Assembly (NCBI GenBank): GCA_015178975.1
Contig: WHVD01000090.1
Span: 248,001-312,000 of the forward strand
DNA: 64,000 bases
Source: Hysterangium stoloniferum
Lineage: Eukaryota; Basidiomycota; Agaricomycetes; Hysterangiales; Hysterangiaceae
Direction of reading: 5' to 3'
Of the stretch, positions 7,315-41,365 are shown piece after piece. Below the pieces are notes generated by a model, which had not been told where the DNA came from, ran no database searches, and worked only from the letters and a program-made list of their open reading frames with translations. The position numbers were made by a program, and so were the translations under genes. How positions within the stretch are numbered: position 1 is the first letter of the stretch; each line of letters starts with the position of its first letter.

Positions 7315-7949
7315 AGTAGTGGTAAGGAGTCAAGGAGATGAATGAACAAAGTTTAACATGCCAAATTGATACAAATAAGGTCACATGACATATTGATGAC
7401 TCACATGACCCACTCCTACCTTATACTGGTGTGTAACATTGAAAATCAGAGAAACTAATAGAGGGTCAAAAAACTGCCCCAATGAGTGATTATTTTGTTT
7501 GATTTATTGAGCAATGAGTTTTGATTGGAATCACATGACTTCTTAAGTTGGTAGATAGCCAACATGTTCTAGTATACAGTGACTCAAAAAACCCTTCCAA
7601 TGTTTGGTACTTCAGATGTATATCCTTGATACCTCAGAGGAGAAAATTGCAAAAATATCAAAAATATTTGTGAATATGCTCTATCATATCTAGATTGTTG
7701 AAATACAATTCCATTACATAATCTCCAAATATGGAAATACTACAAATATATATATACAGGAGGCTCATTGGAAGGGTTTTTTGGCTGACAACTCTGACCC
7801 ACAAAACTACTAATATTCAGTACTTAATATGGCTGTCCTTTGCCTTCAACATACCTGCAACCCTTCTAGGCATACTCTCAATCAAATTCTGACACACCCC
7901 TACATCAATCTTGTTCCACTCCTCCTCCACCCTCTCCCACAACTCCAGT

Positions 7950-8859
7950 CTACCTTAGCCTCCTCTTTTTATGATCCCATAAGTATTCAATGGGGTTGAA
8001 GTCTGGAAACTGTGCTGGCCATGGGAGGACATTAAAATCATTATCTTGAAACAAAGTCTGGGCCTTCTTGCAGGTGTATTCAGGGTCATGATCTTGCTGA
8101 AAGATGACATTACCCACATATTTTCCATAATAGCTGAGGCTGGTTTGAAGATTCTCCTCCATAATCTCGAGATAAAGGTACCCATCCATCCTCTCATCTA
8201 TCTTGAAAGAATACCCAGGTCCTTCCCACAGCATGTAGCCCCATAATATCACAAATCCATCTCCAAACCTCACAAAAAGTCCCTTCCAATGAGTCTCCTA
8301 TATATAAATATTTGTAGTATTTCCATATTTGGAGCTTATGTAATTGCACTGCATTTCCATAATGTAGATATGATAGAGCATATTCACAAATATCTTTGAT
8401 ATTTTTGCATTTTTATTCTCTGAGTTATCAGGGATGTAAATCTGAAGTACCAAACATTGGAAGGGTTATTGAGGCACCAACCATATTGAGACTATTGCAC
8501 ACAGTTTGGGTACAGATGGACTGGTTGGTGACATTCTTAAGAGCTTTGGCCACATCAAAAGCAGTGTCAGCCTTCCCAGAGCTGATGAGATGCTGTGCGT
8601 AGTGAATATTGGTAGGGGAAAGCTTGGAGGGGTGACCACCAATAAACTTAGAGAGATGACAACAATGCTTGGAGTAAAGTCTAACGACTGTGCCAATGCC
8701 ATAACCAGTAAGAGCTGCAATGTGGCCAGCTGTATGGCCAGCATCAAGCAGTGAGAGGATATGATTCTGGCTGGCAAGAGACAAAGTGCACATTTTGGGA
8801 ATTGGGACATTGCTAGTTGCTAAAGGCCATGTATTTATACTCCAGCACAATGTGGTCAT
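7950..8859 (-). pseudogene. Tc1-C transposase with its middle replaced by a repeat copy
   Basis: Reading leftward from 8859, the N-terminal DNA-binding part is clear (SQNHILSLLDAGHTAGHIAA, then GGHPSKLSP and QTVCNSLN). The frame then runs straight into a terminal-repeat-like block (8275-8475). Beyond it the C-terminal core resumes (GDGFVILWGYMLWEGPGY, then IFQQDHDPEYTCKK and DFNPIEYLWDH). The segment that should carry the first catalytic aspartate (W-S/T-DETK) is missing, so the gene cannot be active even apart from other changes. Confidence 0.85.
8275..8475 (+). repeat. extra internal copy of the Tc1-C terminal repeat
   Basis: This block matches the right terminal repeat of Tc1-C (8970-9171) almost throughout, in the same orientation, from CCCTTCCAATGAGTCTCC to ACATTGGAAGGGTTATTGAG. 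It replaces the central part of the transposase gene rather than being added to it. It could be a gene-conversion or aberrant repair product, or a short non-autonomous derivative that inserted with loss of sequence. Confidence 0.8.
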
Positions 8860-9268
8860 GTGACATCATGTGACATCATGTGATTTTGTTGATAGGACCC
8901 AGTTGGAGGTGAACAATCAACAAGGTCACATGACTATAAGCATTTATAGTCATCAAGGCTGCCAGCCAAAAAACCCTTCCAATGAGTCTCCTGTATATAT
9001 ATTTGTAGTATTTCCATATTTGGAGCTTATGTAATGAAATTGTATTTCCACAATCTATATATGATAGAGCATGCTCACAAATACTTTTGATATTTCTGCA
9101 TTTTTATCCTCTGAGTTATCAAGGATATACATCTGAAGTACCAAACATTGGAAGGGTTTTTTGAGTCACTGTATTATGAATTTTTTAGAATTTTTGCTGA
9201 TGTCATTCCTTCACACAATATCAATCTTTCTAAATGTACAAACATTGGGGCAGTTTTGTGACCCACTG

Positions 9269-12408: not shown

Positions 12409-14413
12409 ATGTCTACGCAGTATTCACAAGACCTTGGCTCCGCCGAATCACAGATGCCGTTTGTCTCAGGTATTAAATCAGAGTTTACACTTATTCTAAA
12501 CTGAAAGAGAGAAGGAACAACCAACCACCAATCTTCGCCTAGTTATCCATCAAGCCCAGTATACAGTGCCGATAATCGCTTAGAACCCGAGGACGATAAC
12601 CCTTATAGCAAGCACGTTCAATCCGATTCAACCATATGGTCATTATACCTCAAGGAAACGGGAGAAGATGACAAAGAGCTTGCCACCTCATTGCAAGTCG
12701 GTGTCGACGAGCTTCTCATATTCAATACGTTTTCCTTTATGGATATTTAATTAATTCACAGTTTTTCAGGCCGGTTTGTTTGGAGCGATTCTTACTGCGT
12801 TCCTGATCGAAAGTAGGAAGGATTTGCAGGTAGATCCTCTTCGGGAAATCCTTCAGGCGCTTCAAAATCCCCTCGCTGTAACTACTTCTCAGCCATTTCA
12901 AGTCTCCAAATCATCCCTTGTTGTCAACTGTTTGTGGTTCATTAGTCTCGGTCTGACTCTCTTCAGTGCGCTTTGCGCTGTACTTGCAAAAGAATGGCTG
13001 GCGAAGTATATTCCTGTATCCCCCGGAAGTCGCTCAAATGATGCATGCCAACGTCACCTTCGTGTTAGGAGAGCACAGCAATGGCGTCTCAAGTCAGTTG
13101 TTACTGGAATCCCGCTTTTGATTCAACTGGCTCTCTTTCTTTTCTGTGCAGGTCTCGTCTTATTCAATAGCAGCGTAGCTTTGGGCGTTCTTATGCTTTT
13201 TTTGACCATATTGGCAATCGTGCTATATATACTTGGCACCGTTTTTCCCTTGTTTTCCCCGCTTGTCCCTTTCAGACAACAATGTCACGGTTTTTCCCAG
13301 TCGTCTCTGCAAGCGCAAAGTATGAGACGTCTACATCAGACTACTATGGTTTTTTTTCACCGAAAAGGGCGTATACATTCAGCATTTCTGAATGGCTAGA
13401 CCGCCTTTCTCGGTTCTTGGTCGAAACGCATCACAAGCCTCAACGGGCCGAACTTGAAGCTGATATCCTGGCATGGGTGATTCAAAAATCCACATCGAAG
13501 GAGGGGATTTACGAGGCACTTAGGGCGGTAGCGGGTGCTAAGCAATCTGAACAGTTGCGGATTGCCTTGTGCCAACGGGCTGTCACGGAGAAATTGTGCA
13601 AAAATTTGGAGAACTGCTTTGACACCGCGGGGGTCCTCACTGTCCGTGATGCAGCACTTGCGGAAGTTTCTCTCCTTGCAATGTCACGATTCCTATCGCC
13701 GCCAACAGACAAACTCAAGGACAAAGAGTACCTTACGCCCTTCAAAACACTCCTAGATAATGGGGGACCATTACATCGGTTGGACAATTTAGACCCTTGC
13801 GTGAAGACGTTGGGGTGGGCGGCTCATATTGGGATTTGGGTAAATATGGATGTCGACAACCCAGAGGTGCCGACAGGCCCACACATTCAAACGGTGGCCA
13901 ATATGGGTGCAGCAGCATACGAACGAAGGACATTGATGACGGCGGCTATGGATGGAGCATTGTCAGAAAAGAAGGGCTTGCGTGCGACATGCGAAGGGTT
14001 AATGGTGGCATATTGGTCTCGTAGTAGGGACTTTTTCCATGGCTCCGGGAAAGAAACTGATTGATAAGCAGTGGATTGCCGGAGAATGCTCAAAGAAAAA
14101 GGTTTCATACCTGGTAAACTATGGAGTTGTCATAAGTCAAAACGCACCTAATGTGTTATCATAACAGGAAAAAAAAGAGAGTGGATGAAGAAAGCGATTG
14201 AAAAAGCAGATGATCCTGATGAGCGATTACTATTGGAATGTGGTGAGAAGATGCCAAGTGGAAAAGGGGTGCGATATAATATTCACTGGTGTTTAGCTAG
14301 ATTCCCGACTGGCATCGTTGGTGCTATTCCCAACATTGTTGCACTGTTGAAGGACTCTCACAACTTTATTCAATCAAGTGGAGTATCGGCCCTGGCGAAG
14401 TTTTCAGAGCAGG
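12409..14413 (+). pseudogene. DUF6535 membrane-domain gene, left-arm copy (damaged 5' part of the HEAT gene)
   Basis: Exon 1 is 12409-12469 (MSTQYSQDLGSAESQ), intron 12470-12511 with branch-like CTAAAC, then exon 2 (acidic region with DNRLEPEDDNPYSK and TIWSLYLKE). The main exon from about 12770 encodes the DUF6535 membrane block: LFGAILTAFLIESRK, then hydrophobic spans around SLGLTLFSALCAVLAKEWL, LIQLALFLFCAGLVLF and GVLMLFLTILAIVLYILG. A 48-bp intron at 14021-14068 (branch-like CTGAT) and one at 14114-14167 lead in frame into the HEAT array (EWMKKAIEKADDPDERLLL). Two lesions stand out against the right arm: the GTACAT donor after exon 2 is deleted, and one C is missing in a C-run near 13257, shifting the frame after the last span. 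The family is common in agaricomycetes and has no known function. Confidence 0.8.
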
Positions 14414-17400
14414 GTACGGTGTGATAATGAGATCAGAATCCACCTGATATTTGACCACAGCCGAATGTCGAGCCGCCATTGCGCCTGCCATTCCCGACAT
14501 TATTGCACTGTTGAAGGAGTCCGACCATTCCGTTCGATCAAGGGCGGTATCGGGCTTGGCGAAGTTTTCAGAGCAAGGTGCGGTGTGGGATAATGGGATC
14601 CGAATCCAGCTGACTTTACCCGCAGCCGAATTTCGAGCGGACATTGCGCCTGCCATTTCCGACATTGTTGCACTCTTGAAAGACTCCAACGGTTCCTTGC
14701 GACCAAGGACCTTTTCTGAATGGTGGAAGGACCGCGACGATTCCTTTCGATCAAGTACAGTGTCGGCCCTGGCGAAGTTTTCAGAGCAAGGTGCGGTGGG
14801 TGATAATGGGATGGGAATCCGGCTGACATTTGACCACAGCCGAATTCCGAGCCGCCATTGCGCCTGCCATTCCCGACATTATTGCACTGTTGAAGGACTC
14901 CGACCATTCCGTTCAATCAAGCACAGTATCGGCCCTTGCGAAGTTTTCAGAACAAGGTACGGTGTATGATAATGGGATGGGAATCCAGCTGATATTTGAC
15001 CACAGCCGAGTTTGGAGCGGCCATTGCGGATGTCATCCCTGATATTGTTGCACTGTTAAAGGACTCTAGCTCTTATGATCTATTACGTGCAGTATCGGCT
15101 CTGGCAAAATTTTCACGGCAAGGTGCGGTGTGTGATAATGGGATGGGAATCCAGCTGACATTTGGCCGCAGCCGAACTTCGAGCCGCCATTGCGGGTGTT
15201 ATTTCCGATATTGTTGCACTGTTGAAGGACTCTGACTATTCCGTTCGATCAAAGACTGTTTTGGCCATGGCGATGGTTTTAGAGCAAGGTGCGGTGTGTC
15301 ATAATGGGGTGGGAATCCAGTTGACATTTGACCACAGCTGAATTTCGAGCCGCCATTGCCCCTGCGATTCCCGATATTGTTGCACTGTTGAAGGATTCTC
15401 GCACGTTCTTTAGATCAGGGGCAGTATCAGCCCTGAGGAAGGTTTCAGAGCAAAGTATGTGTGACAGTGAGATGGGAATTGGGCTGACATTTGAACACAG
15501 CTGAATTTCGAGCCGCCATTGCCCCTGCCATTCCCGATATTGTTGCACTGTTTAAGGATTCCGACAAATTCGTTAGATCACAGGCAGTATCGGCCCTGGC
15601 GATGTTTTCAGAGCAAGGTGTGGTGTATGATAATGGGATGGGAATCCAGCTGACATTTGACCACAGCCGAATTTCGACCCACCATTGCGGATGCCATTCC
15701 TGGCATTGTTGCACTGTTAAAAGATTCTGACGAGTTCGTTCGATCAAGGACAGTATCGGCCCTGGCCATTGTTTTAAAGCAAGGTGTAGTGTGTTGGAAT
15801 CGGATCGAATCCAGCTGACATTTGACCACAGCCGAATTTCGACCCGCCATTGCGCCTGCCATTCCCGATATTGTTTCACTGTTGGAGGATTCTGAAGAGT
15901 CCGTTAGATCAGAGGCAGTATCGGCCCTGGCGAAGTTTTCAGAGGAAGGTGCGGTGTATGATAATGGGAGGAATCCAGCTGACATCTGACGACAGCCGAA
16001 TTTCGACCCACCATTGCAGATGCCATTCCTGGCATTGTTGCACTGTTAAAAGATTCTGACGAGTTCGTTAGATCAAGCGCAGGATCGGCCCTGGCGAAGT
16101 TTTCAGAGGAAGGTGCGGTGTATGATAATGGGAGGAATCCAGCTGACATCTGACGACAGCCGAATTTCGACCCACCATTGCAGATGCCATTCCTGGCATT
16201 GTTGCACTGTTAAAAGATTCTGACGAGTTCGTTAGATCAAGCGCAGGATCGGCCCTGGCGGAGGTTTCAAAACAAGGTTGTCCAATAAATCTTGTTGAAA
16301 GATTTGTCTCAAGTCTCCATAGGGGAGTTTCTCCCTCTCGTTAGGGTTAGCATACGCGCGGCTATAGCTCTCTCTGACAACATGCGACCAACCCTGCGTG
16401 AGTCATCTTGAAACCCACTTCGAAGCCTGCACATCCCCTCTTTTTCCCCATCTCATTCTGATCCATATCGCGGTAATCTAGCAAATACGCAAAATATACC
16501 ACACTTCTCTGGATTGTCAACCCGTCCTCTGTCGTCAACTGTAGATCTCTTCCACAGTACTGATAATATTTCGCGTCGTGAAGACATCAAGATCATTCAA
16601 TGCCTAACAATGACATGTACGTGAAGAGAGCTCATATATTGTTCATTCCCTAATTTCTTCACCACTTGCAAGCGTGGAATTTTGACCTTCCCTTATCCAG
16701 GTTAGACCTCACAGTGCAAAAAGGAAAGTTAGCTCTAGGAAAGGTGGTCACTGCTCTACATATGTTTAGTCCGTGCAATAATTCCTTATAAATTGCCGTA
16801 ATTCATGGACATGCAGAGGCATTTGAATCCGCCATTGCCCGTGCCATTCCGGACATTCTTGCACTGTTGAAGGACTCTGACAATTCTGTTCGATCAAGCA
16901 CAATATCGGCCCTGGCCAAGGTTTCAGAGCAAGGTGTCATGTGCGATAACAGGATGAGAATCCATCTAACGTTTGACCACAGACAAATTTCGAGCCGCCA
17001 TTGCGCCTGCCATTCCCGAGATTATTGCATTGTTGAAGGACTCCGACCGTTCCGTTCGATCAGAGGCAGAATCGGCCCTGGTGAAGTTTTCAGAGCAAGG
17101 TGCGGTGTATGATAATGGGAGGAATCCAGCTGACATTTGGGACCACAGCCGAATTTCGACCCACCATTGCGGGTGCCATTCCTGGCATTGTTGCACTGTT
17201 AAAAGATTCTGACGATTCCATTCGATCAACGGGGACATCGACCCTGGCGACGTTTTCAGACCAAGGTCCGGTGTGTGATAATGGGATGGGAATCCAGCTG
17301 ACATTCAACAACAGCTGAATTTCGAGCCGCCATCACGCCTGCCATTCCCGACATTATTGCCCTGTTGAAGGATTCTGACTGGTTCGTTAGATTAAGCGCA

Positions 17401-19105
17401 ATATCGGCCCTGGGGAAGGTTTCAGAGCAAAGTGCGGCGCGTGATAATGGGATGGGAATCCAGCTGACATTTGACGACAGCTGAATTTCGAGCGGCCATT
17501 GCGCCTGCCATTCCCGACATTATTGCACTGTTGAAGAAGTCTGACTATTCTGTTCGATCAAGGACACTATCGGCCCTGGCGAAGTTTTCAGAGCAAGGTG
17601 CGGTGTATGATAATGGGATGAGAATCCAGCTGACATTTGACCACAGCCGAATTTCGACCCACCATTGCGGGTGCCATTCCTGGCATTGCTGCACTGTTAA
17701 AAGATTCTGACGGTTCCATTCGATCAACGGGAGCATCGGCCCTGGCGATGTTTTCAGAACAAGGTGCGGTGTGATAATGGGATGGGAATCTATCTGACAT
17801 TTGACCACAGCTGAATTTCGAGCCGCCATTACGCCTGCCATTCACGACATTATTGCACTGTTGAAGGACTCCGACCATTCCATTCAATTAGGGGTAGTGT
17901 CGGACCTGGCGAAGTTTTCAGAGCAAGGTGCGGTGTATGATAATGGGATGAGAATTCACCTGATATTTGACCACAGCCGAATTTCGACCTGCCGTTGCGG
18001 GTGTCGTTCCCGACATTGTTGCACTGTTGAAGGACTCTCACTATTTTAATCAATCAAGCACAGTATCGGCCCTGGCGAAGTTTTCAGAGCAAGGTGCAGT
18101 GGGTGATAATGGATCAGAATCCCGCTGACATTTTACCACAGCCGAATTTCGAGACGTCCTTGCGCCTGCCATTCCTGACGTTGTTACACTCTTAAAGGAC
18201 TCTCGCTGGGTTGTTCGATCAAATGGAGTATCGGAACTGGCGAAATTTTTGGAGGAAGGTGCGGTGGGTGATAATGGGATCAGAATCTAGCTGACATTTT
18301 ACCACAGCCGAATTTCGAGCCGCCATTGCCCCCGCCATTCCCGACATTGTTGCACTGTTAAAGGACCCTTCCGAGTACGTTCGATCAAGTGGGGTATTGA
18401 CACTGGCGAAGCTTTCAGAGCAAGGTGCGGTGTGTGATAATGGGATCGGAATCCGGCTGACATTGGACCCAGCGGAATTTCGACCCGCCATTGCGCGTCT
18501 CATTCCCAACATTGTTGCCCTGTTGGAAGACGCAGATTTTCAAACTCAAACAAATGTTCTGGACCTGGTCGTTCGGCTAGCAGCCCATGGTGTGTGCATT
18601 GACACACACAAGTCAACATCTCCTTAACGTTTTCAAAGATTGCCTTCGCGAAGCTATTATTGGTTGTAAATTAGAACGTCACTGTATATCCCTTGTCAAT
18701 AGCAACGACGACGAAGTGGTTTCAAATGCTGGAAAATTGTTTGTAGCTTTTGCTCAATATGGTAAGCTTTAATTCTTTCCACCATTGACTCCTTTTACCG
18801 TCTTGCAGGTTACTTTACCGACATTAAGCTGCACATAGTCATCTCTGCATTGTGCCACTTGTATTTACCTGAACCACCTCTGCAACATCGTGGCACGCTG
18901 ATTGAAATCCTCTTGAAGTCTCGTAAGTGTTTACCTCATCGAGTTGTGATGAATACCGATCTTGGTAGCTTGTACAAGCCATGCCATTCTTGAAGTTGCT
19001 CATATTATATCCTTCATTACACATTTCATGGAGGACATTTCTGCTGAGCGCATTTGGGCTTTCATCGTGCAAATGGATAGACACGGACTATTAACAACAT
19101 TGTAG
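14168..19105 (+). CDS. HEAT-like repeat array, one repeat per exon, left-arm copy
   Basis: Exon 14168-14413 ends in a first HEAT-like repeat. Then follow 22 exons: 14461-14577, 14626-14790, 14840-14956, 15006-15122, 15172-15288, 15338-15454, 15501-15617, 15667-15783, 15832-15948, 15996-16112, 16160-16276, then after a spacer 16817-16933, 16983-17099, 17149-17265, 17315-17431, 17481-17597, 17647-17763, 17811-17927, 17977-18093, 18142-18258, 18308-18424, 18473-18589. All but one are exactly 117 bp. Each encodes 39 residues as two helices: AEFRAAIAPAIPDIIALLKD, a variable DSDHSVRSS-like turn, then VSALAKFSEQ. Three unlike exons finish the protein (18639-18761, 18809-18922, 18969-19105; stop TAG at 19103). 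Introns are GT-AG, phase 1. Exon 2 has an in-frame 48-bp extra piece absent from the right arm. HEAT solenoids usually bind proteins; the target here is unknown. Confidence 0.85.
14461..18589 (+). repeat. tandem exon-plus-intron repeat, about 166-bp unit, 11 + 11 copies (left)
   Basis: The repeating unit is a 117-bp exon plus a 47-50-bp intron. The introns are copies of one another: they begin GTGCGGTGT, carry a GATAATGGGATGGGAATCC-like core and CTGAC branch-like motif, and end TTTGACCACAG. The exon begins CCGAATTTCGAGCC or CTGAATTTCGAG and ends TTTTCAGAGCAAG. The break falls after the first base of an Ala codon (G|CC or G|CT) every time, so units can be added or lost in frame. Confidence 0.95.
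16277..16816 (+). other. 540-bp spacer in the middle of the HEAT array (left)
   Basis: After unit 11 the next unit starts 540 bp later. The spacer is conserved in the other arm. Read without splicing, unit 11 continues for about 22 residues (CPINLVERFVSSLHRGVSPS in the left arm, nearly the same in the right) to a stop at 16342. It also begins with GT and ends with ATGCAG at a phase-1 acceptor. Either it is one long intron, or a first gene ends here and a second array gene starts with a separate promoter (TATAAAT near 16787). Confidence 0.6.
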
Positions 19106-20384: not shown

Positions 20385-21559
20385 TCAGCCCAAGACCGGG
20401 ATCGGGAATGATATATCACACGTCCATACGATCTCCATCTGCCTCATCCATCGCCCCGATGGCGGCCTATCAAAAACGAAGAAAAGAATCAACGACAACG
20501 CCAACCAACACGGTGAACGCAAAAACCTTAGCAGCAAGTACGACCGCCTCTCTTTGCACTTCCGCGTTTTCCACGACGCCGCCTTCCAGCCGGGCCAACG
20601 CGAGGTCCCTTCCGCATCATTATTCACAAGGCGCAACATGTCATCCGCGGCAATAGTCATCCAAATAGCAGCAGCTTCAACTTCCAAAGCGCACGGTGTC
20701 TTGATACGGTCGTTGTCGTCCTCGAGGTCCAAAGAAAGGTCATTGATGAGATCATCATTGGGGTCATAGTCCTCGTCATCGCTCCCACCATCGCTGGCTT
20801 GGTCGACTTCGTCAAGAGTTATCACATGTTCGCGTAGCGAGTCGTCATCAGTGTCGTCCGGGGTGCCAGGCTCGGAGGTCATGGAGACCATGCTGATATC
20901 CAGATCTAACTCACGGGCGCCTTCGCTGACCTCGAGACCGAGATGTACGATATCAAGGGCCAACACTCTAGGGAAATCGACATGGACCTCGTGCCAGAGC
21001 CGAACCGCGAAGCGTTGCAGGTTGAGATATCCCTGGCTGGCTTTAAGAGGTCGGGTGCAGAAGAGGGCTTGGGCGCATCGCCGGCTAGGATATCCCGGAC
21101 AATTTGGGATGTATCACTCACAGTAGGAGGGATATTCGGCACTTCGTAACCAACATGTCAACATTTGAGGGTCGGTGACTGAAGCGGCGCCCACTCACCA
21201 TTCCAAATATCCTTGGCCACGTCGCCTAATAGCGGCAGGGTATTCCACCCCCCCTTCACATCCCTCACAACCCATTGCTCCCCCGCCTCACTAGCTTTTG
21301 CATCCTTCAAAAAGGTGACAAGCCTCTCCTGCACGCCCTCGTCACCTTCCTCTGCCAGTTTATAAACCCCATCCCACAGCGCCCAGAAGAAACTATCAAC
21401 GCCCGCCGTATCACGTCTATGTGTCTTATCGGTGTCGTTGGCGTTCGCTATGCATTGGAGTGAAAGAGCGATGGCAGTCGAGGTAAGTGATTCAATGGGG
21501 ATGGTAGAGTCGCCAAGGGCCGCCAGAATGCTTTGGACAACTTCAAGGGTCGTCGACAT
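20385..21559 (-). pseudogene. DUF3632-like gene, left-arm copy
   Basis: Exon 1 is 21559-21199 (MSTTLEVVQSILAALGDS, then FFWALWDGVYKLAEEG), with a 57-bp intron 21198-21142 (GTGAGT...GAAG). Exon 2 runs to a stop at 20385. Exon 2 carries VPNIPPTVSDTSQIV, an acidic stretch (DDTDDDSL, DDEDYDPNDD) and a C-terminal LEVEAAAIWMTIAA block with W-x-x-W, features that resemble the fungal DUF3632 family, whose function is unknown. Against the right arm, 10 bases are missing near 21045, which shifts the frame early in exon 2, whereas exon 1 is intact here. The family call rests on pattern memory only. Confidence 0.6.
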
Positions 21560-22099
21560 GTTGCGGAGAATGTGGTGATGATGGTGGAAAGAGGGAGAGT
21601 TGTGAGTAGGTGGTCAAGTTGCGAGTGAGTTCTTTGATATGTGTAGCAGGCGCCAGGGGGGATACATGTGGTCCCAGCGTTTGGCAACGTATCGATTTCA
21701 GCTATATGAGGCAAGCGAGAGCACCTATAGGAACCTATAATTATAATTTACTTTACTGTCAACAATGACGATGGAGGAGCTAAAATGGTACGTACAGACA
21801 GATAACCTCCAAGTCGATTTAAAGACGGGTTTGAGGCATTCTAACAAATTTTGAGTACGCTAGTACTCCATTATCACTGAGACGTCATATAAGAGGGCTA
21901 ATTTGAAGTTTAGACTGAGAGAGACACGATAATGATGGTCGTGAAAAGCAGAACAAGCAATGTAGACGCTTAGGCGAAAGAGACGCCCAGTCTTCATCGT
22001 GACGGTGTCACTCTTATGTAAGTCGCTTTACTCTTACGTAAGTCGCGTAACATCAGTTTGATATTTTTTCCTCTTTTCTTTTGTACAGCCACGTGGAGG
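21560..22099. other. promoter side of the DUF3632 gene; no gene seen
   Basis: Co-linear with 30780-31296 of the right arm. It contains an imperfect direct repeat (ACTCTTATGTAAGTCGC then ACTCTTACGTAAGTCGC at about 22009-22045). The right end is the target of the solo LTR at 22100. Confidence 0.5.
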
Positions 22100-22185: not shown

Positions 22186-22587
22186 TATTAGAGTTAAGAG
22201 TCTAGATACAACAATTAATACTCAGTATTTGCGCGCAGTATGCCAAATAGCTGAGTTGATTACCTAGATACAACAATTAATACTAGGTAATAAATGAGTA
22301 AGAAAGATAAATAAAAGTAGTGATAACTATCTCACCTCAGTATTTGTGCGCAGTATGCCAAATAGCTGAGGTGATACTAACTAAATTGTCCTGTATTTAA
22401 ACTGTCTAGTAGCCAAGAGAAATATCCATATAATATATAATATCAAGACAAGGGTACGAAATGACTATTGTTACCAATGTTTATATCGCCGTAAGGCCAT
22501 ATTGCGGCCTTTGCATGACCGTATGACCGTGTGGCCGTATAGCCGAATACGGTCATCGCGGACTATTTCATGCTTGTTGATCCAACA
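22186..22587 (-). repeat. 3' LTR of the copia element
   Basis: 402 bp, on the minus strand starting TGTTGGATCAAC. It contains two related inner blocks each with AGTATGCCAAATAGCTGAG. Nearly identical to 26972-27373. Confidence 0.95.
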
Positions 22588-22589
22588 CT

Positions 22590-25500
22590 CCCCTTCAAGC
22601 TGTAGATAGTCCTAATTCAGAAGCGAAGTGTTTGACTTTCGCGGATGGAAGTGGCTTTGTGAGCGTATCGGCAACCATGTCACCGGTTGGGCAGTAAACA
22701 AGGCGGATTGAGCCATTTTCTATGATCCAGCGGATGAAATGAAAACGTATGTCGATATGTTTCGTGCGAGCGTGGTACTGATGATCTTTCGTGAGTGCAA
22801 TGGCCGATTGATTGTCTGAAAACAAAGTTGTGGGTGTATCTGGGGGTCCAAACAATTGACTAAGCAAAGAACGCAACCAAAGCGCTTCCTTAGATGCATG
22901 GGTCGCTGCAACATATTCACTCTCGGTCGTAGAGAGTGAAACTATCTCCTGTCGCTTTGCACTCCAGGATACGGCGCCACCATTTAACATAAAGGCGTAG
23001 CCAGAAATGGCATGACGATCTTCAGCCATACTACCATCGGCGTCAGCATATCCAGTAAGTGTTCGATTGTGATCTTGCTTCCTGTATGTTAACCACAAAT
23101 GGTTGGTACCTTTTAGATAGCGGAAGATTCGCTTCACGGCCTCCCAGTGGGCTCGACCTGGATTGTTGGAAAATCTCGAAACTACTTGCACAGCGAAGGC
23201 AATGTCAGGACGAGTACCCATTGCAGCGTACATAAGGGAGCCAACAGCCTCATGATAAGGTATATCACGCATTTCAGCGCTTTCTTTCGTGGTCGAGGGA
23301 GATTGAGATGAAGATAAGTGCATGGTATGGTCCATAGGAGTGGATTTTGGTTTTAGATCTTCAAGGTGATAACGACGGAGGATGGAATCGATGTAGGAAC
23401 GTTGAGATAAGCGTAAGGTGTGTTGTTCCCGTTCACGAGTTATTTCGATTCCTAATAGCCAGTGCAGGTTTCCCATATCACTGATCTCCACATGAGTAGC
23501 AACGTCATGTTTGAAGGTAATAATGGTATCGTTTGAGGTTGAAGCGATTGTGCAATCATCCACATGAACCAGCACAATTGTCAGGATACTGTGCTTCATA
23601 CGATAAAACACGGCCTGATCAACATCACTGCGAGTGAATTCTAACTTTTCCATGATCTCCACTAACTTTTGATACCAGCGTCGTCCGGACTGTTTTAAAC
23701 CGTACAGTGTCTTTAAGAGGTGGCACACTTGCCCTTTCGAGTCTGGAGCGTGATATCCAGGTGGCTGCTTCATGAAGATTGTCTCGTCGTTTGTGAGTTC
23801 ACCATTTAGATATGCACCTTTAATGTCAATCTGGTGTAATTCGAGGTTCAGTGCAGCTGCCATTGACAACACAGTGCGAATTGAAGCAAGTTTTGCGACG
23901 GGTGCAAATGTGTCGAAGTAATCAACACCAGGTACTTGGGAGAAGCCTTGCACAACCAAACGGGCCTTGTACCTGACGACGTTTCCTGCAGCATCCTTTT
24001 TGGCACGAAAGACCCATTTCGATCCGACTATGTTGGCACCTTCAGGAGGGTTGACAAGCTCCCAGGTGTGTGCAGTCCGCAGTGTTTCTAGCTCTTCAAA
24101 AATGGCCTGTTCCCACAATGGCCAGTCGGGACGATGCTTGGCTTCAGTCAAGGAACGTGGTTCAATTGCCTCAGCATTGCTGATTTCGAGAGCTAGTGCG
24201 TGTTCTTCTTGCATTTCCGTTAACATCATCCAGTTTGCTGTGCCTTCTCCTTCCAAGACTTCGGTACTGCTGTTCGCAGGTTTGCTGGTAGGCAATTGGA
24301 TGCCAGTGGTGAGTTTGGGGTCAGATTGCCAGTGCGTACTGACACCAGTGCCATGTAAAATGTCCTGAATACGCTGGCTAGCTTTTCTGGTACGTTTTTC
24401 TGTGGTGATTACTCCAGGTTGCAAATTTTCGCTGTTCTGCATAGGAGTGGTGAGTAGCTTCAGTTTAGTGTCAGTTTTCGTTTCGATAAGGTTCCATTCC
24501 TCCCCTTCGAGACGAGAGGCTGACAAGTTATTGTAGTACACGTTGCGTTCGACTGTTACAGTCTGCTTGTCTGGCCAATAAACGCGTACACCGTTACTTC
24601 AATCGTCGATGCCCACCCAGTTTCCTTCGCGTACTCGTCCTCCAAGTTTATCACCACTTGCCACCCTTACCCAAACCCTTTCACCCCATTCGCGCAAATC
24701 CTTCAAATTTGGCTTGGTTTTGAAGTCTGCTTCATATGGTGTAGTGTCGCCAACAGCTTTTGTGGTTGTGCGATTCAATAACCATATGACATGCCGAGCG
24801 GCTTCACCCCACAGAGATTTCGGTAACACACTGGCATGCAGGAGGGCTCGTACTCGTTCTAGGATGGTGCAGTTTCGACGTTCTGCAATGCCATTATGCT
24901 GTGGAGTGTCGTGTGTGGTAAGTTTCTGCTCAGTGCCTTTGATTTTGAGATGGTGCTCAAAATCTTTGCTGAGGAATTCGCCGCCACGATCTGAATGCAG
25001 TTTCTTTATGGGCGCATTAAGTTGTGTTGCACACCAGGCTTCAAATTTCAGGTAAGCATCAAAAGTGTCTGCCTTGGTTCTGAGAAGTTGCAAGTGAGTA
25101 AAGCGTGTGTTATCATCTGTAAAAGTCACATAATAACGACGACCTCCTAGTGTTTGTGTGGGTGCAGGCCCCCACACGTCTGTGTGTATTTCTTCACCAA
25201 ATGCTTCAGCACGTGCGCCTTGGCGGATTTTTTGGATCGGCTTCCTGGTGGCTTTAGCATAGATACAAGATTTGCAGAAAAATGGATCTCCACTCGGTGA
25301 GTATTTCAATTGAACACCGGTAACAAAACCCTTTTTTACCAGGCGGTGTGCAATGTCTGGGGCTATATGGCCCATTCGGCGATGAAATTTTTCAATGGTA
25401 AGATCTTCATCAACCATATTCGCCGAGTCGATTTCACTGACATGCTTGTACAGATTTCGCTTTGACTTGGGTATTTCACCAACAGTGTTGCCAGCTGCAT

Positions 25501-25680
25501 CGCGGATGACACATTTTCCACTGCCAAAAGTTACAGAAAAGCCGTTTTCATCGAGTTGGCCAACAGATATTAAGGTATATCCAACCTCGGGAGAGTAGAG
25601 CACCTCAGTAAGGTGCAATTTTGAGGTTAGGCCATTATTGGGTAAGTCTAGGACAAGTTCTCCTTGGCCGACTGCCTGAA
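22590..25680 (-). mobile_element. copia pol region: integrase, reverse transcriptase, RNase H
   Basis: The integrase part (about 24.6-25.6 kb) shows the family's HRRMGH...C-K-S-C zinc-binding block, HTDVWGP and SDRGGEF. The reverse transcriptase part (about 22.6-24.5 kb) shows the copia signatures KWVFRAKKD, LHQIDIKGAYLNGEL, YGLKQSGR, HVDDC, GSLMYA and the RNase H TESEYVA and TKHIDIR blocks. Together they would copy the RNA and insert the cDNA. Treated here as part of a fossil element. Confidence 0.92.
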
Positions 25681-25739
25681 AACTGCCCCTATTTGCAGCG
25701 CGAAAAAACTTTGGGGAAATATCCGTGAAGTTTAATAAA

Positions 25740-26935: not shown

Positions 26936-26971
26936 TCAACTGTGCGTAGTGTAGTTCGGGGCCCAATAACC

Positions 26972-27373
26972 TATTAGAGTTAAGAGTCTAGATACAACAA
27001 TTAATACTCAGTATTTGCGCGCAGTATGCCAAATAGCTGAGTTGATTACCTAGATACAACAATTAATACTAGGTAATAAATGAGTAAGAAAGATAAATAA
27101 AAGTAGTGATAACTATCTCACCTCAGTATTTGCGCGCAGTATGCCAAATAGCTGAGGTGATACTAACTAAATTGTCCTGTATTTAAACTGTCTAGTAGCC
27201 AAGAGAAATATCCATATAATATATAATATCAAGACAAGGGTACGAAATGACTATTGTTACCAATGTTTATATCGCCGTAAGGCCATATTGCGGCCTTTGC
27301 ATGACCGTATGACCGTGTGGCCGTATAGCCGAATACGGTCATCGCGGACTATTTCATGCTTGTTGATCCAACA
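26972..27373 (-). repeat. 5' LTR of the copia element
   Basis: 402 bp, nearly identical to the LTR at 22186-22587. It is followed internally by a primer-binding-type stretch next to position 26971. Confidence 0.95.
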
Positions 27374-34088: not shown

Positions 34089-37000
34089 CTACAATGTTGT
34101 TAATAGTCCGTGTCTATCCATTTGCACGATGAAAGCCCGAATGCGCTCAGCAGAAATATCCTCCATGAAATGTATAATGAAGGATATAATATGAGCAACT
34201 TCAAGAATGGCATGGCTTGTACAAGCTACCAAGATCGGTATTCATCACAACTCGATGAGGTAAACACTTACTAGATTTCAAGAGGATTTCAATCAGCGTA
34301 CCACGATGTTGCAGAGGTGGCTCAGGTAAATATAGGTGACACAATGCAGAAATGACTATGTGCAGCTTAATGTCGGTAAAGTAACCTGCAAGACGGTAAA
34401 AGGAGTCACAGGTGGAAAGAATTAAAGCTTACCATATTGAGCAAAAGCTACAAACAATTTTCCAACATTTGAAACGACTTCGTCGTCGTCGTTATTCACA
34501 AGGGATATACAGTGACGTTCTAATTTACAACCAATAATAGCTTCGCGAAGGGAATCTTTGAAAACATTGAGGAGATGTTGACTTGCGTGTCAATGCACAC
34601 ACCATGGGCTGCTAGCTGAACGAGCAGGTCCAGAACATATGTTCGAGTTTTAAAATATGCGTCTTCCAACAGGGCAACAATGTCGGGAATGAGACGGGCA
34701 ATGGCGGGTCGAAATTCCGCTGCGGTCCAATGTCAGCCGGATTCCGATCCCATTATCACACACCGCACCTTGCTCTGAAACCTTCGCCAGTGCCAATACC
34801 CCACTTGATCGAACGACCTCGTCAGGGTCCTTTAACAGTGCAACAATGTCGGGAATGGCAGGGGCAATGGCGGCTCGAAATTCGGCTGTGGTAAAATGTC
34901 AGCTCGATTCTGATCCCATTATCCCCCACCGCACCTTGCTCTGAAAATTTCGCCAGGGCCGATACTGTGCTTGATCGAGTGAAATGGTAAGAGTTCTTCA
35001 ACAGTGCAACAATGTCGGGAATGACACCCGCAACGGCGGGTCGAAATTCGGCTGTGGTCAAATATCAGCTGGATTCCCATCCCATTATCATACACCGCAC
35101 CTTGTTCTGAAAACTTCGCCAAGGCCGACACTGTCCTTGATTGAACGGAACGGTCGGAGTCCTTCAACAGTGCAATAATGTCGGGAATGGCAGGCGTGAT
35201 GGCGGCTCGAAATTCAGCTGTCGTCAAATGTCAGCTGGATTCCCATCCCATTATCATCCACCGCACCTTGTTCTGAAAACTTCGCCAAGGCCGACACTGT
35301 CCTTGATTTAACGGAACGGTTGGAGTCCTTCAACAGTGCAATAATGTCGAGAATGGCAGGCGTGATGGCGGCTCGAAATTCAGCTGTGGTCAAATGTCAG
35401 CTGGATTCCCATCCCATTATCACACATCGCACCTTGCTCTGAAAACATCGCCAGGGCCGATGCTCCCGTTGATCGAATGGAACCGTCAGAATCTTTTAAC
35501 AGTGCAAGAATGCCAGGAATGGCATCCGCAATGGTGGGTCGAAATTCGGCTGTGGTCAAATGTCAGCTGGATTCCCATCCCATTATCATACACCGCACCT
35601 TGCTCTGAAAACTTCGCCAGGGCCGATACTACCTCTGATCGAACAGTATAGTCAGACTCCTTCAACAGTGCAATAATGTCGGGAATGGCAGGCGCAATGG
35701 CCGCTCGAAATTCAGCTGTCGTCAAATGTCAGCTGGATTCCCATCCCATTATCACGCACCGCACTTTGCTCTGAAACCTTCCCCAGGGCCGATATTGCGC
35801 TTAATCTAACGAACCAGTCAGAATCCTTCAACAGTGCAATAATGTCGGGAATGGCAGGCCCAATGGTGGCTCGAAATTCGGCTGTGGTCAAATGTCAGCT
35901 AGATTCCCACCTCATTATCACATACCGCACCTTGGTCTGAAAGCATCGCCAGGGCCGACGCTCCCGTTGATCGAATGGAATCGTCAGAATGTTTTAACAG
36001 TGCAACAATGCCAGGAATGGCATCCGCAATGGTGGGTCGAAATTCGGCTGTGGTCAAATGTCAGCTGGATTCCCATCCCAGTATCATACACCGCACCTTG
36101 CTCCGAAAACTTCGCCAGGGCCGATAGTGTCTCTGATTGAACGGAAAGGTCGGAGACCTTCAACAATGCAATAATGTCGGGAATGGCAGGCGCAATGGCG
36201 GCTCGAAATTTGTGGTCAAATGTTAGCTGGATTCTCATCCTGTTATCACACATGACACCTTGCTCTGAAACCTTGGCCAAGGCCGATACTGTGCTTGATC
36301 GAACAGAATTGTCAGAGTCCTTCAACAGTTCAAGAATGTCCGGAATAGCACGGGTAATGGCGGATTCAAATTCGTCTGCAAGTCCATGAATCACGGCAAT
36401 TTATAGGGAATTGTTGCACGGACTAAACATATGTAGAGCAGTAACCAGCTTTCCTAGAGCTAACTTTCCTTTTTGCACTGTGAGGTCTAACCTGGATAAG
36501 GGAAGGTCAAAATTCCGAGCTTGAAAGTGGTGAAGAAATCAGCGAATGAACAATATATGACCTCTCTTCACGTACATGTCATTGTTAGGCATTGAATGAT
36601 CTTGATGTCTTCACGACGCGAAATATTATCGGTACTATGGAAGAGATCTACAGTTGACGACAGAGGACGGGTTGACAATCCAGAGAAGTGTGGTATATTT
36701 TGCGTATTTCCTAGATTACCGCGATATGGATCAGAATGAGATGGGGAAAAAGAGGGGATGTGCAGCCTTCGAAGTGGGTTTCAAGATGACTCACGCAGGG
36801 GTGGTCGCGTTTGGTCAGAGAAACCTATAGCCGCGCGTATTCTAACCCTAACGAGAGGGAGAAACTCCCCTATGGAGACTTGAGACAAATTTTTCAACAA
36901 GATTTATTGGATCACCTTGTTTTGAAACCTCTGCCAGGGCCGATCCGGTGCTTGATCTAACGACCTCGTTAGAATCTTTTAACAGTGCAACAATGCCAGG

Positions 37001-38987
37001 AATGGCATCCGCAATGGTGGGTCGAAATTCGGCTGTGATCAAATGTCAGCTGGATTCCCATCCCATAATCATACACCGCACCTTGCTCTGAAAACTTCCC
37101 CAGGGCCCATACTGCCTGTGATCTAACGAACTCGTCAGAATCCTCCAACAGTGAAACAATATCGGGAATGGCAGGGGCAATGGCGGCTCGAAATTTTTCT
37201 GTGGTCAAATGTTAGCTGGATTCTCATCCTGTTATCACACATGACACCTTGCTCTGAAAACTTCGCCAGGGCCGATACTGCCTCTGATCTAAATAACTCG
37301 CCAGAATCTTTTAACAGTGCAACAATGCCAGGAATGGCATCCGCAATGGTGGGTCGAAATTCGGCTGTGGTCAAATGTCAGCTGGATTCCCATCCCATTA
37401 TCATACACCACACCTTGCTTTGAAAACTTCGCCAGGGCCGATACTGCCTCTGATCTAAAGAACTCGTCAGAATCTTTTAACAGTGCAACAATGCCAGGAA
37501 TGGCATCCGCAATGGTGGGTCGAAATTCGGCTGTGGTCAAATGTCAGCTGGATTTCCATCCCATTATCATACACCACACCTTGCTTTGAAAACTTCACCA
37601 GGGCCGATAATGCCACTGATCTAACGAATTTGTCAGAATCCTTCAACAGTGCAACAATATCGGGAATGGCAGGGGCAATGGCGGCTCGAAATTCGGCTGT
37701 GTTTAAATGTCAGCCCGATTCCCATCTCACTGTCACACACCGTACTTTGCTTTGAAACCTCCTTCAGGGCTGATACTGCCTCTGATCTCAAAGATGTGTG
37801 AGAATCCTTCAACAGTGCAAGAATATCGGGAATGGCAGGGGCAATGGCCGCTCGAAATTCAGCTGTGGTCAAATGTCAACTGGATTCCCATCCCATTATA
37901 ACACACCGCACCTTGCTCTAAAACCGTCGCCATGGCCAAAACAGTCTTTGATCGAACGGAATAGTCAGAGTCCTTCAACAGTGCAACAATACCGGAAATA
38001 ACACCCGCAATGGCCGCTTGAAGTTCGGCTGTTGTCAAATGTCAGCTGGATTCCCATCCCATTATCGCATACCGCACCTTGCTCTGAAACTTTCGCCAGA
38101 GCCGATACTGCAGGTAATAGATAATAATACCTAGAGACCTCAAACAGTGCAACAATGTCAGGAATGACATCCGCAATGGCCGCTCCAAACTCGGCTGTGG
38201 TCAAATATCAGCTGGATATTCCCATCCCATTATCATACATCGTACCTTGTTCTGAAAACTTCGCCAGGGCCGATTCTGTGCTTGATCGAACGGAATACTC
38301 GGAGTCCTTCAACAGTGCAATAATGTCGGGAATGGCAGGCGCAATGGCGGCTCGAAATTCGGCTGTGGTCAAATGTCAGCCGGATTCCCATCCCATTATC
38401 ACACACCGCACCTTGTTCTGACAACTTCGCCAGGGCCGATACTGTCCTTGTTCGAACGGAATCGTCGGAGTCCTTCAACAGTGCAATAATGTCGGGAATG
38501 GCAGGCGCAATGGCGGCTCGAAATTCGGCTGTGGTCAAATGTCAGCCGGATTCCCATCCCATTATCACACCGCACCTTGCTCTGAAAACTTCGCCAGGGC
38601 CGATACTGTGCTTGATCGAACAGAATGGTCAGACTCCTTCAACAGTGCAATAATGTCGGGAATGGCAGGCGCAATGGCGGCTCGAAATTCGGCTGTGGTC
38701 AAATGTCAGGTGGATTCCTATCTCATTATCACACCGTACCCTGCTCTGAAATCTTCGCCAGGGCCGATACTCCACGTGATCGAATGAAGTTGTCAGAGCC
38801 CTTCAACAGTGCAGCAATGTTGCGAATAGCACCAACGATGCCAGTTGGGAATCTAGCTGAACATCGGTGAATATTATATCGCACCCCCTTCTCCACTTGG
38901 CATCTTCTCACCACATTCCAAAAGTAATCGCTCATCAGGATCATCTGCTTTTTCAATCACTTTCTTCATCCAGTCTCTTTCTTTCCC
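34089..38987 (-). CDS. HEAT-like repeat array, right-arm copy
   Basis: Mirror of 14168-19105: a first exon starting at 38987, units 1 to 11 starting at 38692 and going down to the spacer, units 12 to 22 from 36375 to 34603, and three last exons ending at TAG 34089. The same unit order can be followed in both arms (for example the unusual YYYLLPAVS unit 4 and the SLRSEAVSALKEVS unit 6), so the array was already this long before the arms separated. Unit 2 is a plain 117 bp here. One splice acceptor (before unit 13, near 36210) has lost its AG. Apart from that, most units keep the frame and both splice sites. Confidence 0.82.
34603..38692 (-). repeat. tandem exon-plus-intron repeat, 11 + 11 copies (right)
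   Basis: Same unit as in the left arm, at about 166-bp steps (exon starts near 38692, 38530, 38364, 38192, 38026, 37860, 37694, 37528, 37362, 37196, 37030, then 36375, 36210, 36046, 35880 and on to 34719). Introns are as alike as exons. Confidence 0.95.
36376..36915 (-). other. 540-bp spacer in the HEAT array (right)
   Basis: Counterpart of 16277-16816 with the same length. The read-through tail after unit 11 (INLVEKFVSSLHRGVSPS and stop at 36848) is kept, which argues that it may be a real C-terminus in some transcripts. Confidence 0.6.
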
Positions 38988-39162
38988 TGTTATGATAATA
39001 CATTAATTAGGTGTGTTTTGACTTATGACAACTCCATAGTTTACCAATGAAACCCTTTTCTTTGAGCATTCTCCGGCAATCCGCTGCTTATCAATCAGTT
39101 TCTTTCCCGAAGCCATGGAAAAAGTCCCTACTAAGATGCGAATATGCCACCATTAACCCTTC

Positions 39163-40776
39163 TCATGTTGTACGTAAGCCCTTCTTTTCTGACAATGCTC
39201 CATCCATAGCCGCCGTCATCAATGTCCTTCGTTCGTATGGTGCTGCACCCATATTGGCCACCGTTTGAATGTGTGGGCCTGTCGGCACCTCTGGGTTGTC
39301 GACATCCATATTTACCCAAATCCCGATATGAACCGCCCACCCCAACGTCTTTACGCAAGGATCTAAATTGTCCAACCGATGTAATGGTCTCCCATTATCT
39401 AGGAGTGTTTTGAAGGGTGTAAGGTACTCTTTGTCCCTGAGTTTGTCTGTCGGCGGCGATAGGAATCGTGACATTGCAAGGAGAGAGACTTCCGCAAGTG
39501 CTGCATCACGGACAGTGACGACGCCCATGGTGTCAAAGCAGTTCTCCAAAGTTTTGCACAATTTATCCGTGACAGCCCGTTTGCACAAGGCAATCCGCAA
39601 CTGTTCAGATTGTTTAGCACCTGCTACCGCCCTAAGTGCCTCATAAATCCCCTCGTTCGATGTGGATTTTTCAATCACCCATGCCAGGATATCAGCTTCA
39701 AGTTCGGCCCGTTGAGGCTTGTGATGCGTGTCGACCAAGAACTGAGAAAGGCCGTCTAACCATTCAGAAATGCTGAATGTATACATCCTTGTCGGTGAAA
39801 AAAAAACATAGTAGTCTGATGTAGACGTCTCATACTTTGCGCTTGCAGAGACGACTGGGAAAAACCTTGACATTGTTGTTTGAAAGGGACAAGCGGGGGA
39901 AAACAAGGGAAAAACGGTGCCAAGCATATATAGCACGATTGCCAATATGGTCAAAACAAGCATAAGAACGCCCAAAGGTACGCTGCTATTCCATGTGAAT
40001 AAGACGAGACCTGCACAGAACAGAAAGAGAGCGAGTTTAATCAAAAGCGGGATTCCGGTAACAACTGGCTCGAGACGCCATTGCTGTGCTCTCCTAACAC
40101 GAAGGTGACGTTGGCATGCATCATTTGAGCGACTTCCGGGGGATACAGGAATATACTTCGCCAGCCATTCTTTTGCAAGTACAGCACAAAGCGCACTGAA
40201 GAGAGTCAGACCGAGACTAGTGAACCACAAATAGTTGACAACAAGCGATGATTTGGAGACTTGAAAAGGCTGAGAGGTAGTTACAGCGAGGGGATTTTGA
40301 AGCGCCTGAAGGATTTCCCGAAGAGGATCTACCTGCAAATCCTTCCTACTTTCGATCAGGAACGCGGTAAGAATCCCTCCAAACAAACCGGCCTGAAAAA
40401 TTCTGAATTAATTAAATATCCATAAAGGAAAACGTATTGAATGTACAAATACGAGAAGCTCGTTGACACCGACTTGCAATGAGGTGGCAAGCTCTTTGTC
40501 CTCTTCTCCCGTTTCCTTCATGTATAATGACCATATGGTTGAATCGGATTCAACATGCTTGCTATAGGGGTTATCGTCCTCGGGTTCTAAGCGATTATCG
40601 GCACTGGATACAGGGCTTGATGGGATATAAGTAGGCGAAGATTGACGGTTGGTTGTTCCTTCTCCCTCTGTTTGTGTGCCTCAGTTTAGAATAAGTGTAA
40701 ACTCTGATTTTATACCTGCCACAAACGGTATCTGTGATTCGGCGGAGCTAAGGTCTTGTGAATACTGCGAAGACAT
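39163..40776 (-). CDS. DUF6535 membrane-domain protein, right-arm copy
   Basis: Three exons: 40776-40716 (start ATG, MSSQYSQDLSSAESQ), 40661-40447 (acidic, ending with ELLVF at a GTACAT donor) and 40392-39163, giving about 501 residues. The third exon has the whole DUF6535 block: LTAFLIESRK, hydrophobic spans around LGLTLFSALCAVLAKEWL, LALFLFCAGLVLF and LTILAIVLYMLG, then a soluble part with KPQRAELEADILAWVI and LLAMSRFLSPPTD. The frame ends early (KKGLRTT) compared with the left arm, where a Cys codon stands in place of the stop, and the following splice donor is changed. So this copy probably makes the membrane part alone, uncoupled from the HEAT array behind it. Likely an integral membrane protein; role unknown. 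Confidence 0.75.
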
Positions 40777-41365
40777 GGTCTGAGGAGGGTTGGAGGATTC
40801 CAACGGCAAGAACGGAAATGTGCTTCATCTGGATGAACGCCCAAAACCAGGTCGTGCACGAGAATCAACGTTGGCCAACGAGTGGCGCGCGTTGACCAAA
40901 GGTTATTTGGCATGTATTATCCTCTTCTATTTCTACCGCGACAGTGTCCCTTGCAAGTAGCCTTGTAGGCTGTACTTTTTGCAGGAGACTTTGCTGGTCA
41001 AACAAAAAAAAAAGAGGCTCAAGCCGTACTCAATTCTGTCTGTAACGCACGTTCCTTATCGGCACGGGCATCGGCCAGAGGCAAACCCCCTTTGTGAAGA
41101 CCGATGTTGAATCGTGGTACTTCTCGGGAGAAGCCCATTTACGTTAACCTCTTCTTAATTATGATGTTGTTGGAGTGACGACTCCCGTCACAATGTCACT
41201 CCAAGAGAGTACCTCATTACATAGGAATAAAAGAGAGCGGGGAGTTCAAAACGCCGTAGGATAGTGATTGCCACACCGTCGCGTGCGTGGTCATGAGATG
41301 GCCTGGATTGAGGTGTGTATCGCGTCCTGTTTTATGAGTCTATCTGCCCAAAGTTAGCTCTGTTG

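Follow-up and report, generated by a model that had tools for sequence, protein, structure and literature searches.

Exon-plus-intron repeat cassettes in a family of candidate recognition receptors from Hysterangium stoloniferum

A stretch of 64,000 nucleotides from the basidiomycete Hysterangium stoloniferum (contig WHVD01000090.1, positions 248,001 to 312,000 of the forward strand; hereafter the window) carries a gene, here called array A, in which a DUF6535 membrane domain is followed by HEAT-repeat units that each consist of an exon and its intron. Array A probably belongs to a family of membrane-protein genes spread across the genome, whose exon cassettes are reshuffled and selected as recognition receptors. 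As judged from their sequences, the members would share a layout of DUF6535 with hydrophobic helices, a linker, 17–40 HEAT repeats of 39 residues, usually a spacer, and a C-terminal part that is conserved. The exon cassettes would be reshuffled by unequal crossing-over and by gene conversion among paralogs, and the variants would be retained by selection favouring novel binding surfaces; we infer that the proteins act as membrane-anchored receptors recognizing self/non-self or microbes. The introns would be carried along as near-neutral passengers, and array A and its inverted neighbour in the window, array B, would be degraded members that may still donate units. A wider proposal, that the DUF6535-HEAT genes constitute an undescribed NOD-less family of membrane-anchored receptors in mushroom-forming fungi, with about 65 loci via cassette shuffling and possibly also in-phase exon skipping, is tentative and rather unlikely to hold as a whole.

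The family and its repeat unit

The genome (111 Mb, 554 contigs) was searched with the units and with DUF6535. The unit searches returned 269, 246, 567, 351 and 232 matches in overlapping sets, and loci were counted among the matches listed. On that basis at least 65 loci, on at least 37 contigs, carry one or more unit matches, and at least 47 of 69 DUF6535 loci are followed by a unit match on their own strand within 9 kb. A few of the small contigs could, however, be duplicates in the assembly, and some loci consist of a single match. The spacing of neighbours among the same matches is about 166 bases even in divergent members. Tandem Repeats Finder reports two arrays of period 166 with scores of 2647 and 2960, which excludes a chance origin; comparison of the array with plasmid sequences gave no match. 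The sequence-only reading of the window had overlooked array B, which lies in inverted orientation 20 kb from array A, and the array is not unique in the genome, as the other loci show. Its DUF6535 domain upstream of the array was borne out by a profile match, and the check that it proposed, for 39-residue repeats beside DUF6535 in other basidiomycetes, finds both in Mycena proteins. Unit matches that lack a listed DUF6535 domain upstream occur at C1:1872327-1874680, C124, C140, C145, C17 and C129; these are perhaps solenoids with another N-terminal domain.

Array A lies on the forward strand. Its exons 1–3 (12409..14023), a broken upstream part, include DUF6535 (PF20153), as recognized by the profile match and by comparison with array B. 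Exon 4 (42 bp, 14072..14113) is flanked by introns GTAGGG..AAGCAG (48 bp) and GTAAAC..ACAG (54 bp), and exon 5 (246 bp, 14168..14413) contains unit 0 as its 3' end (14297-14413). A first block of units 1–11, separated by phase-1 GT-AG introns of 46–49 bp, occupies 14461..16276; a second block of units 12–22, with 117-bp exons and introns of 47–49 bp, occupies 16817..18589. Between them a 540-bp spacer (16277..16816) splits the array; its exons (16323-16397, 16482-16620 and 16701-16768) are non-repeat and its introns measure 46, 84, 80 and 48 bp. The C-terminal exons (18639-18761, 18809-18922 and 18969-19105, together 18639..19105) end in the stop codon TAG. All inter-unit introns of array A are GT-AG, and none of its 23 units contains a stop. 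The sequence-only reading had placed the gene correctly at 14168..19105, as an exon begins at 14168 after ..AACAG and the TAG ends at 19105. It had counted 22 units instead of 23, given the introns as 47–50 bp instead of 46–49 bp, and left the spacer unmentioned. Its exon length of exactly 117 bp is right for 21 of the 23 units and fails for unit 2 (165 bp, 14626-14790) and for unit 0 within its longer exon. The phase-1 position of the introns was upheld, and the claim that all split the same Ala codon was not: the codon is usually Ala, but units 12 and 13 have Glu or Asp and unit 7 has Thr.

Sixteen arrays were analysed letter by letter. They hold 32, 22, 40, 22, 17, 17, 17, 23, 22, 23, 23, 5, 19, 27, 23 and 23 units, the array with five being a fragment and the three with 17 being one locus in three near-identical contigs (C318, C414 and C475). 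This trio is 99.7–99.8% identical over the arrays and lacks the 5' part; from its sequence it appears to be one pseudogene in three assembly copies. In the 326 full units, the exon is 117 bp long in 303 and a multiple of three in 317; nine are not a multiple of three and nine units contain a stop. Since the trio holds eight of each, there remain one stop and one frameshift in the 281 units outside it. Under neutrality about 32 nonsense changes would be expected over 187 nearest-neighbour pairs; the 265 units behind these pairs had already passed filters on length, stops and membership of the trio, and the observed counterpart is therefore the one stop in 281 units. A non-coding satellite is ruled out by the reading frames, the stop counts and the GT or GC donors.

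Unit introns are 45–52 bp long (49 bp in 253 of 326). Their donors are GT in 318 units and GC, the commonest non-canonical donor, in eight; 319 units have an AG where the acceptor is expected. A strict CTRAY branch site is present among the final 25 bases of the intron in 302 of 326 units, against 33 expected after shuffling; an earlier count of 319 with a looser pattern was dropped, as that pattern also fits the intron's TTGAC. An alternative donor 5–9 bases downstream (GTGTGTG) was rejected: as judged by reading, most offsets break the frame, and unit 6 of array A has a canonical GTATGT exactly at the proposed site. Because 117 is a multiple of three and the unit introns are in phase 1, any whole number of units keeps both frame and splicing. 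The same interchangeability of junctions, with exon lengths divisible by three in 317 of 326 units, would also suit combination at the RNA level, whereby any donor might join any acceptor in phase, many solenoids would be made per gene and genomic shuffling would be secondary. The polyubiquitin gene UBC is reported to be spliced stochastically to variable monomer numbers (PMC10809524). Yet the annotated close relative P0006 mostly joins neighbouring units (judged by eye), and we consider such combination very improbable.

Gene models were built for nine of the 16 arrays, leaving out C121, C212b, C527b and the four arrays that lack the 5' part. The model of C527a (C527:37131) is open to its stop codon, with 33 exons and 23 units, as is that of C545c (C545:181526), with 37 exons and 27 units; in the latter one unit intron lacks its AG, and by reading an AG 12 bases past the missing acceptor would keep the frame. 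The model of C545a_11899 is open but unfinished. In these models exon 2 ends six bases early; the intron-2 donor GTACAT fits the Mycena sequence LLIFAGLF, and adding the six bases leaves the frame unchanged.

Variable positions and unit exchange

The repeats match HEAT profiles (HEAT_2, 62.1 bits with a cut-off of 27.7; HEAT, 50.1 bits with a cut-off of 23.5; six repeats of C527a), and a predicted structure of P0006 shows, at modest confidence, helices at about residues 1–20 (helix A) and 23–37 (helix B) in its cleanest repeats. The evolution of individual repeat positions was followed in the 187 nearest-neighbour pairs, drawn from the 265 of 326 units that passed the filters. Five positions outpace synonymous sites while the hydrophobic core is conserved. 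The ratio of nonsynonymous to synonymous change (omega) is 2.64 at positions 22, 23, 24, 26 and 28 and 0.91 at the other 33, and it falls to 0.17–0.24 at L17, L18 and L33. In a split-half test, positions picked on half of the pairs (8.4 on average) had an omega of 2.12 (1.56–2.98) on the rest. On the predicted model the variable positions would lie in the turn between the two helices and at the beginning of helix B. The sequence-only reading had proposed a hypervariable recognition role; the positions do vary as expected of a binding surface, and from this we infer the function.

Artificial HEAT-like binders offer a comparison, as alphaRep proteins match the unit repeats by sequence among PDB entries. 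The alphaRep positions given as randomized in PMC3754942 are 18, 19, 22, 23, 26 and 30. Aligned on the D..xxVRxx motif, these map to repeat positions 23, 24, 27, 28, 31 and 35, on which fall three of the five variable positions of the family (p 0.02) and four of the six most variable positions in Mycena (p 0.0025). The Mycena positions come from P0001 of Mycena albidolilacea (1679 residues), which is 41% identical along a 1053-residue query comprising DUF6535, the linker and the first repeat block. Twenty-two repeat starts can be counted in it, together with an insert outside the repeats; this insert and the C-terminal end, which resembles that of the family, were compared by eye. Its repeats are 70% alike among themselves, and their consensus shares 23 of 39 residues with the Hysterangium units; a distinct consensus is as expected of turnover within each lineage. 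With 17 of the 22 repeats usable, its most variable positions are 8, 22, 23, 24, 27 and 31.

An alternative explanation is that the family is relaxed and recently amplified: unequal crossing-over would multiply units and paralogs, which would drift near-neutrally and then die, the variable positions being merely tolerant. Such relaxation fits the whole-exon dN/dS between arrays, 0.74–1.09 for reciprocal-best unit pairs at a distance below 0.1, 0.86 beyond it and 1.03 for array A against array B, as well as the lesions in both window copies and several paralogs. However, stops and frameshifts are nearly absent from the arrays outside one pseudogene, and a core omega of about 0.2 stands against values above 2 at the five positions, an excess with Poisson p of 4e-5 to 1e-11 computed on pairs that are not independent. 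Moreover, the variability at positions 22–24 is seen again in Mycena. Relaxation is judged unlikely. The omega of the DUF6535 exon is 0.69 (seven of eight sequences usable, with the broken copy B included and C121 dropped).

Exons and introns differ in how far they have diverged. Unit exons are 74–88% alike within the 16 arrays, and the introns are more alike than the exons in all 16; the repeats of arrays A and B together are 66% identical as protein. The sequence-only reading had described the introns as being as alike as the exons; those of array A are in fact somewhat more alike (83.4% versus 78.0%). When the trio and C121 are excluded, the divergence of unit introns between arrays is similar to that of spacer introns (0.054 versus 0.060), so that they are not specially constrained; the idea of a special constraint on them, which we had considered, is unsupported by this comparison.

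Exchange between arrays is indicated by the relationships of the units: only 49 of 326 have their nearest relative in the same array, and 30 of these are in C121. Array B (minus strand) is, by comparison of sequences, a mosaic of tracts from different paralogs. Its stretch 35900..37700 (units 7–15) is 99–100% identical to C545:181526 and its stretch 35100..35700 (units 16–19) 99–100% identical to C212:666834, while in 200-base windows its 5' part (39000..41200) is 94–100%, mostly 97–100%, identical to C212:656390. Outside the tracts of high identity, array B is about 90–97% like those paralogs. The tract borders are resolved to about 100 bases, too coarse to place breakpoints in introns or exons. 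That the unit of duplication is an exon plus an intron with its own splice sites, as the sequence-only reading had it, was confirmed by whole units that are identical, intron included: 14 and 16, and 17 and 19, in C212b, and 18 and 19 in C212a; these duplications of complete units are recent. The spacer is found in 14 of 16 arrays, and the 40-unit array, in which an earlier block was re-used, has it twice.

Unit number differs between paralogs (17–40 in 15 arrays), as had been foreseen; the rapid change that had been supposed was not borne out. Many arrays have the same order and number of units, and arrays A and B are largely in register; turnover thus does occur, though at no great speed. 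Between two landmarks P0006 and the array at C346 show the same spacing of about eight units, as reckoned by hand. The range in number and the symmetric phase-1 exons, which suit changes of length, would also fit a structural scaffold whose repeat number sets its reach and whose length alone is tuned by recombination; nebulin and collagen are scaffolds of this kind. Nevertheless, the variation is concentrated at surface positions and 22–23 units are kept in eight of 16 arrays, and we regard a length module as quite improbable.

Several points weigh against the reading of the family as reshuffled and selected receptors. The letter-level analysis covers 16 arrays of the 65 listed loci, mostly from one subgroup, and six of the nine gene models have internal stops, which are partly real lesions and partly perhaps faults of the models. 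The splicing of the units is deduced from genomic sequence rather than from transcripts; the donor GTGCGG is weak compared with the usual GTRAGT, and seven units lack the expected AG, three of them belonging to the trio and the other four to C212a_666834, C545a_17180, C545c and array B (one each). The structure model of P0006 is weak, with a mean predicted local distance difference test score of 51, rising to 69–78 in the clean C-terminal repeats. Whole-exon dN/dS near 1 is also what relaxed constraint would give, and the nearest-neighbour pairs behind omega are subject to disturbance by recombination in addition to their non-independence. Positions 26 and 28 are outside Mycena's top six, and the correlation of position variability with Mycena is moderate (Spearman 0.42, p 0.008; C121 alone 0.24, p 0.13). 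The constancy of 22–23 units in half of the arrays, with A and B mostly in register, sits poorly with fast change in unit number. Finally, introns within arrays are about twice as alike as synonymous sites (in C121, for example, 0.059 versus 0.129), a likeness that neutral passenger introns leave unexplained.

The window copies and their surroundings

Array B (34089..40776, minus strand) is an inverted paralog with the layout of array A. Its first block (units 0–11) spans 36916..38856, a spacer homologous to that of array A spans 36376..36915, and the second block (units 12–22) spans 34636..36375, all on the minus strand, the last unit being partly covered by a profile match. Its units mostly match those of array A with the same index. 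DUF6535 lies upstream of both, with 126 bits in A and 123.9 bits in B against a curated cut-off of 23.9 for PF20153. Both copies look like broken genes, with lesions upstream of the arrays. Relative to B, array A has a 1-nucleotide deletion in the C run 13257-13260 of the DUF6535 exon and an 8-nucleotide deletion at about 12718 that takes away the intron-2 donor. Both lesions are shared with the paralog at C545:115825 and are therefore not sequencing errors in A alone; among the 11 arrays compared, only this paralog (C545b_115825) has the shortened exon 3 of A. C212a_656390, considered as another carrier of the 1-nucleotide deletion, was ruled out by its open exon 3. Array B carries a TGA at 39165-39163, and its G run at 38888-38884 is one base longer than that of its paralogs. 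Both lesions could be assembly errors. Its unit 13 lacks the AG acceptor, a defect found in three paralogs as well. A double stop after KETD is explained by the 48-bp intron GTAGGG (or GTACGG)..AGCAG. The array exons of A and B remain open despite the lesions upstream.

DUF3632 genes at 20385-21613 (minus strand) and 31314-32480 (plus strand) adjoin the two arrays in opposite orientations, and the flank of array B is 99% identical to C212:663928-665469; together these indicate duplication of a segment that extends beyond the HEAT gene. Between the arrays lies a Copia-type long terminal repeat (LTR) retrotransposon (22186-27373) with gag and reverse transcriptase domains. Its two 402-bp LTRs differ by one mismatch and TGAGGT stands beside both ends, and on this sequence its insertion appears very recent. 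Remnants at 41332-44389, 5938-8865 and 55161-56683, all on the minus strand, represent a second copia-like element, Tc1-type transposases and a reverse-transcriptase element. Two similar open reading frames in inverted orientation, 58259-58630 (minus strand) and 61536-61883 (plus strand), have no Pfam match.

Relatives and known systems

In addition to P0001, P0029 (Mycena latifolia) and P0002 (Mycena venus) combine DUF6535 and HEAT repeats. P0006, recorded under the name H. stoloniferum, is 95–99% identical over 362 of 693 residues, and 89% at one end, to places within C346:448.0-450.7 kb. By eye it joins most units as in the unit-splicing model, and it reads through one intron, GAVCDNGMGIPLTFDES, which implies that the same intron is present in its source genome. 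Since residues of about 364–390 of this public protein record translate an intron, published gene models of this kind may contain local errors. The record of P0030, from the ascomycete Coleophoma cylindrospora, names a NACHT domain, and its repeats are 38% identical to the unit repeats; it is a possible link between HEAT arrays of NOD-like receptors (NLRs) and DUF6535 arrays.

If the preferred reading of reshuffled, selected cassettes is true, a large receptor-like system without a NOD domain would be added to fungal immunity. It would also provide an example from nature of introns that delimit the unit of exchange, with binding repeats gained, lost or replaced while the gene stays intact, and the role of introns in repeat-protein evolution would become testable through breakpoints, splicing and selection over hundreds of cassettes in one genome. 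The duplication of exons with introns is itself an old idea, familiar from collagen, nebulin, kringles and work on introns in repeat proteins. In the literature searched, where one PMC paper mentions DUF6535, we found no description of exon-plus-intron cassettes for DUF6535 or fungal HEAT arrays; to that extent the sequence-only reading's view that such arrays are undescribed stands.

The Mycena DUF6535-HEAT ('armadillo-type') proteins such as P0001 have the same order of DUF6535, 39-residue repeats, insert, repeats and similar C-terminus; P0001, known here from its protein sequence, differs in its own repeat consensus. The randomized positions of alphaRep binders overlap the natural variable ones, whereas alphaRep proteins are engineered from intronless constructs. 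Their repeats have 31 residues and are thus shorter than 39. The SSSGP genes of the Hessian fly, as described in PMC2955719, likewise diversify in the coding part while the non-coding part stays alike, but there diversification occurs between clustered genes and here between exons of one gene. Polyubiquitin UBC similarly has splice sites at each repeat boundary (PMC10809524); these are dual-specific AGGT sites, in contrast to the separate 49-bp introns of the DUF6535-HEAT arrays.

The closest published behaviour is that of the repeat domains of fungal NLRs, and the DUF6535-HEAT family is not shown to be an NLR family. PMC4986451 reports that these domains are highly conserved internally, exchange repeats between paralogs, evolve under positive selection on their concave surface and are polymorphic in repeat number; one fungal HEAT NLR has 3–12 repeats, and about 13–15% of NLR N-terminal domains are annotated in basidiomycetes. 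Like the repeats of fungal NLR/STAND proteins (the WD40 repeats of HNWD het-d/het-e, and the ANK, TPR and HEAT NLRs of Podospora), which are described as near-identical, superstructure-forming, variable in number, exchanged within and between paralogs and selected at the binding surface (PMC4986451, PMC12222747), the units described here are near-identical, are exchanged between paralogs, differ in number between paralogs and change fastest at putative binding-surface positions. Unlike those proteins, the family has a membrane DUF6535 domain. Neither NACHT nor NB-ARC is among the families listed for the scanned pieces, namely the N-terminal 575 residues, the spacer and the C-terminal part of C545c and six repeats of C527a (25 of 32 families), the whole array being unscanned. 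The shuffled piece differs too, being an exon plus an intron; in the main text of PMC4986451 'exon' occurs once and 'intron' does not occur, and neither word occurs in PMC12222747. It is this exon-plus-intron cassette that is the distinctive trait of the family.

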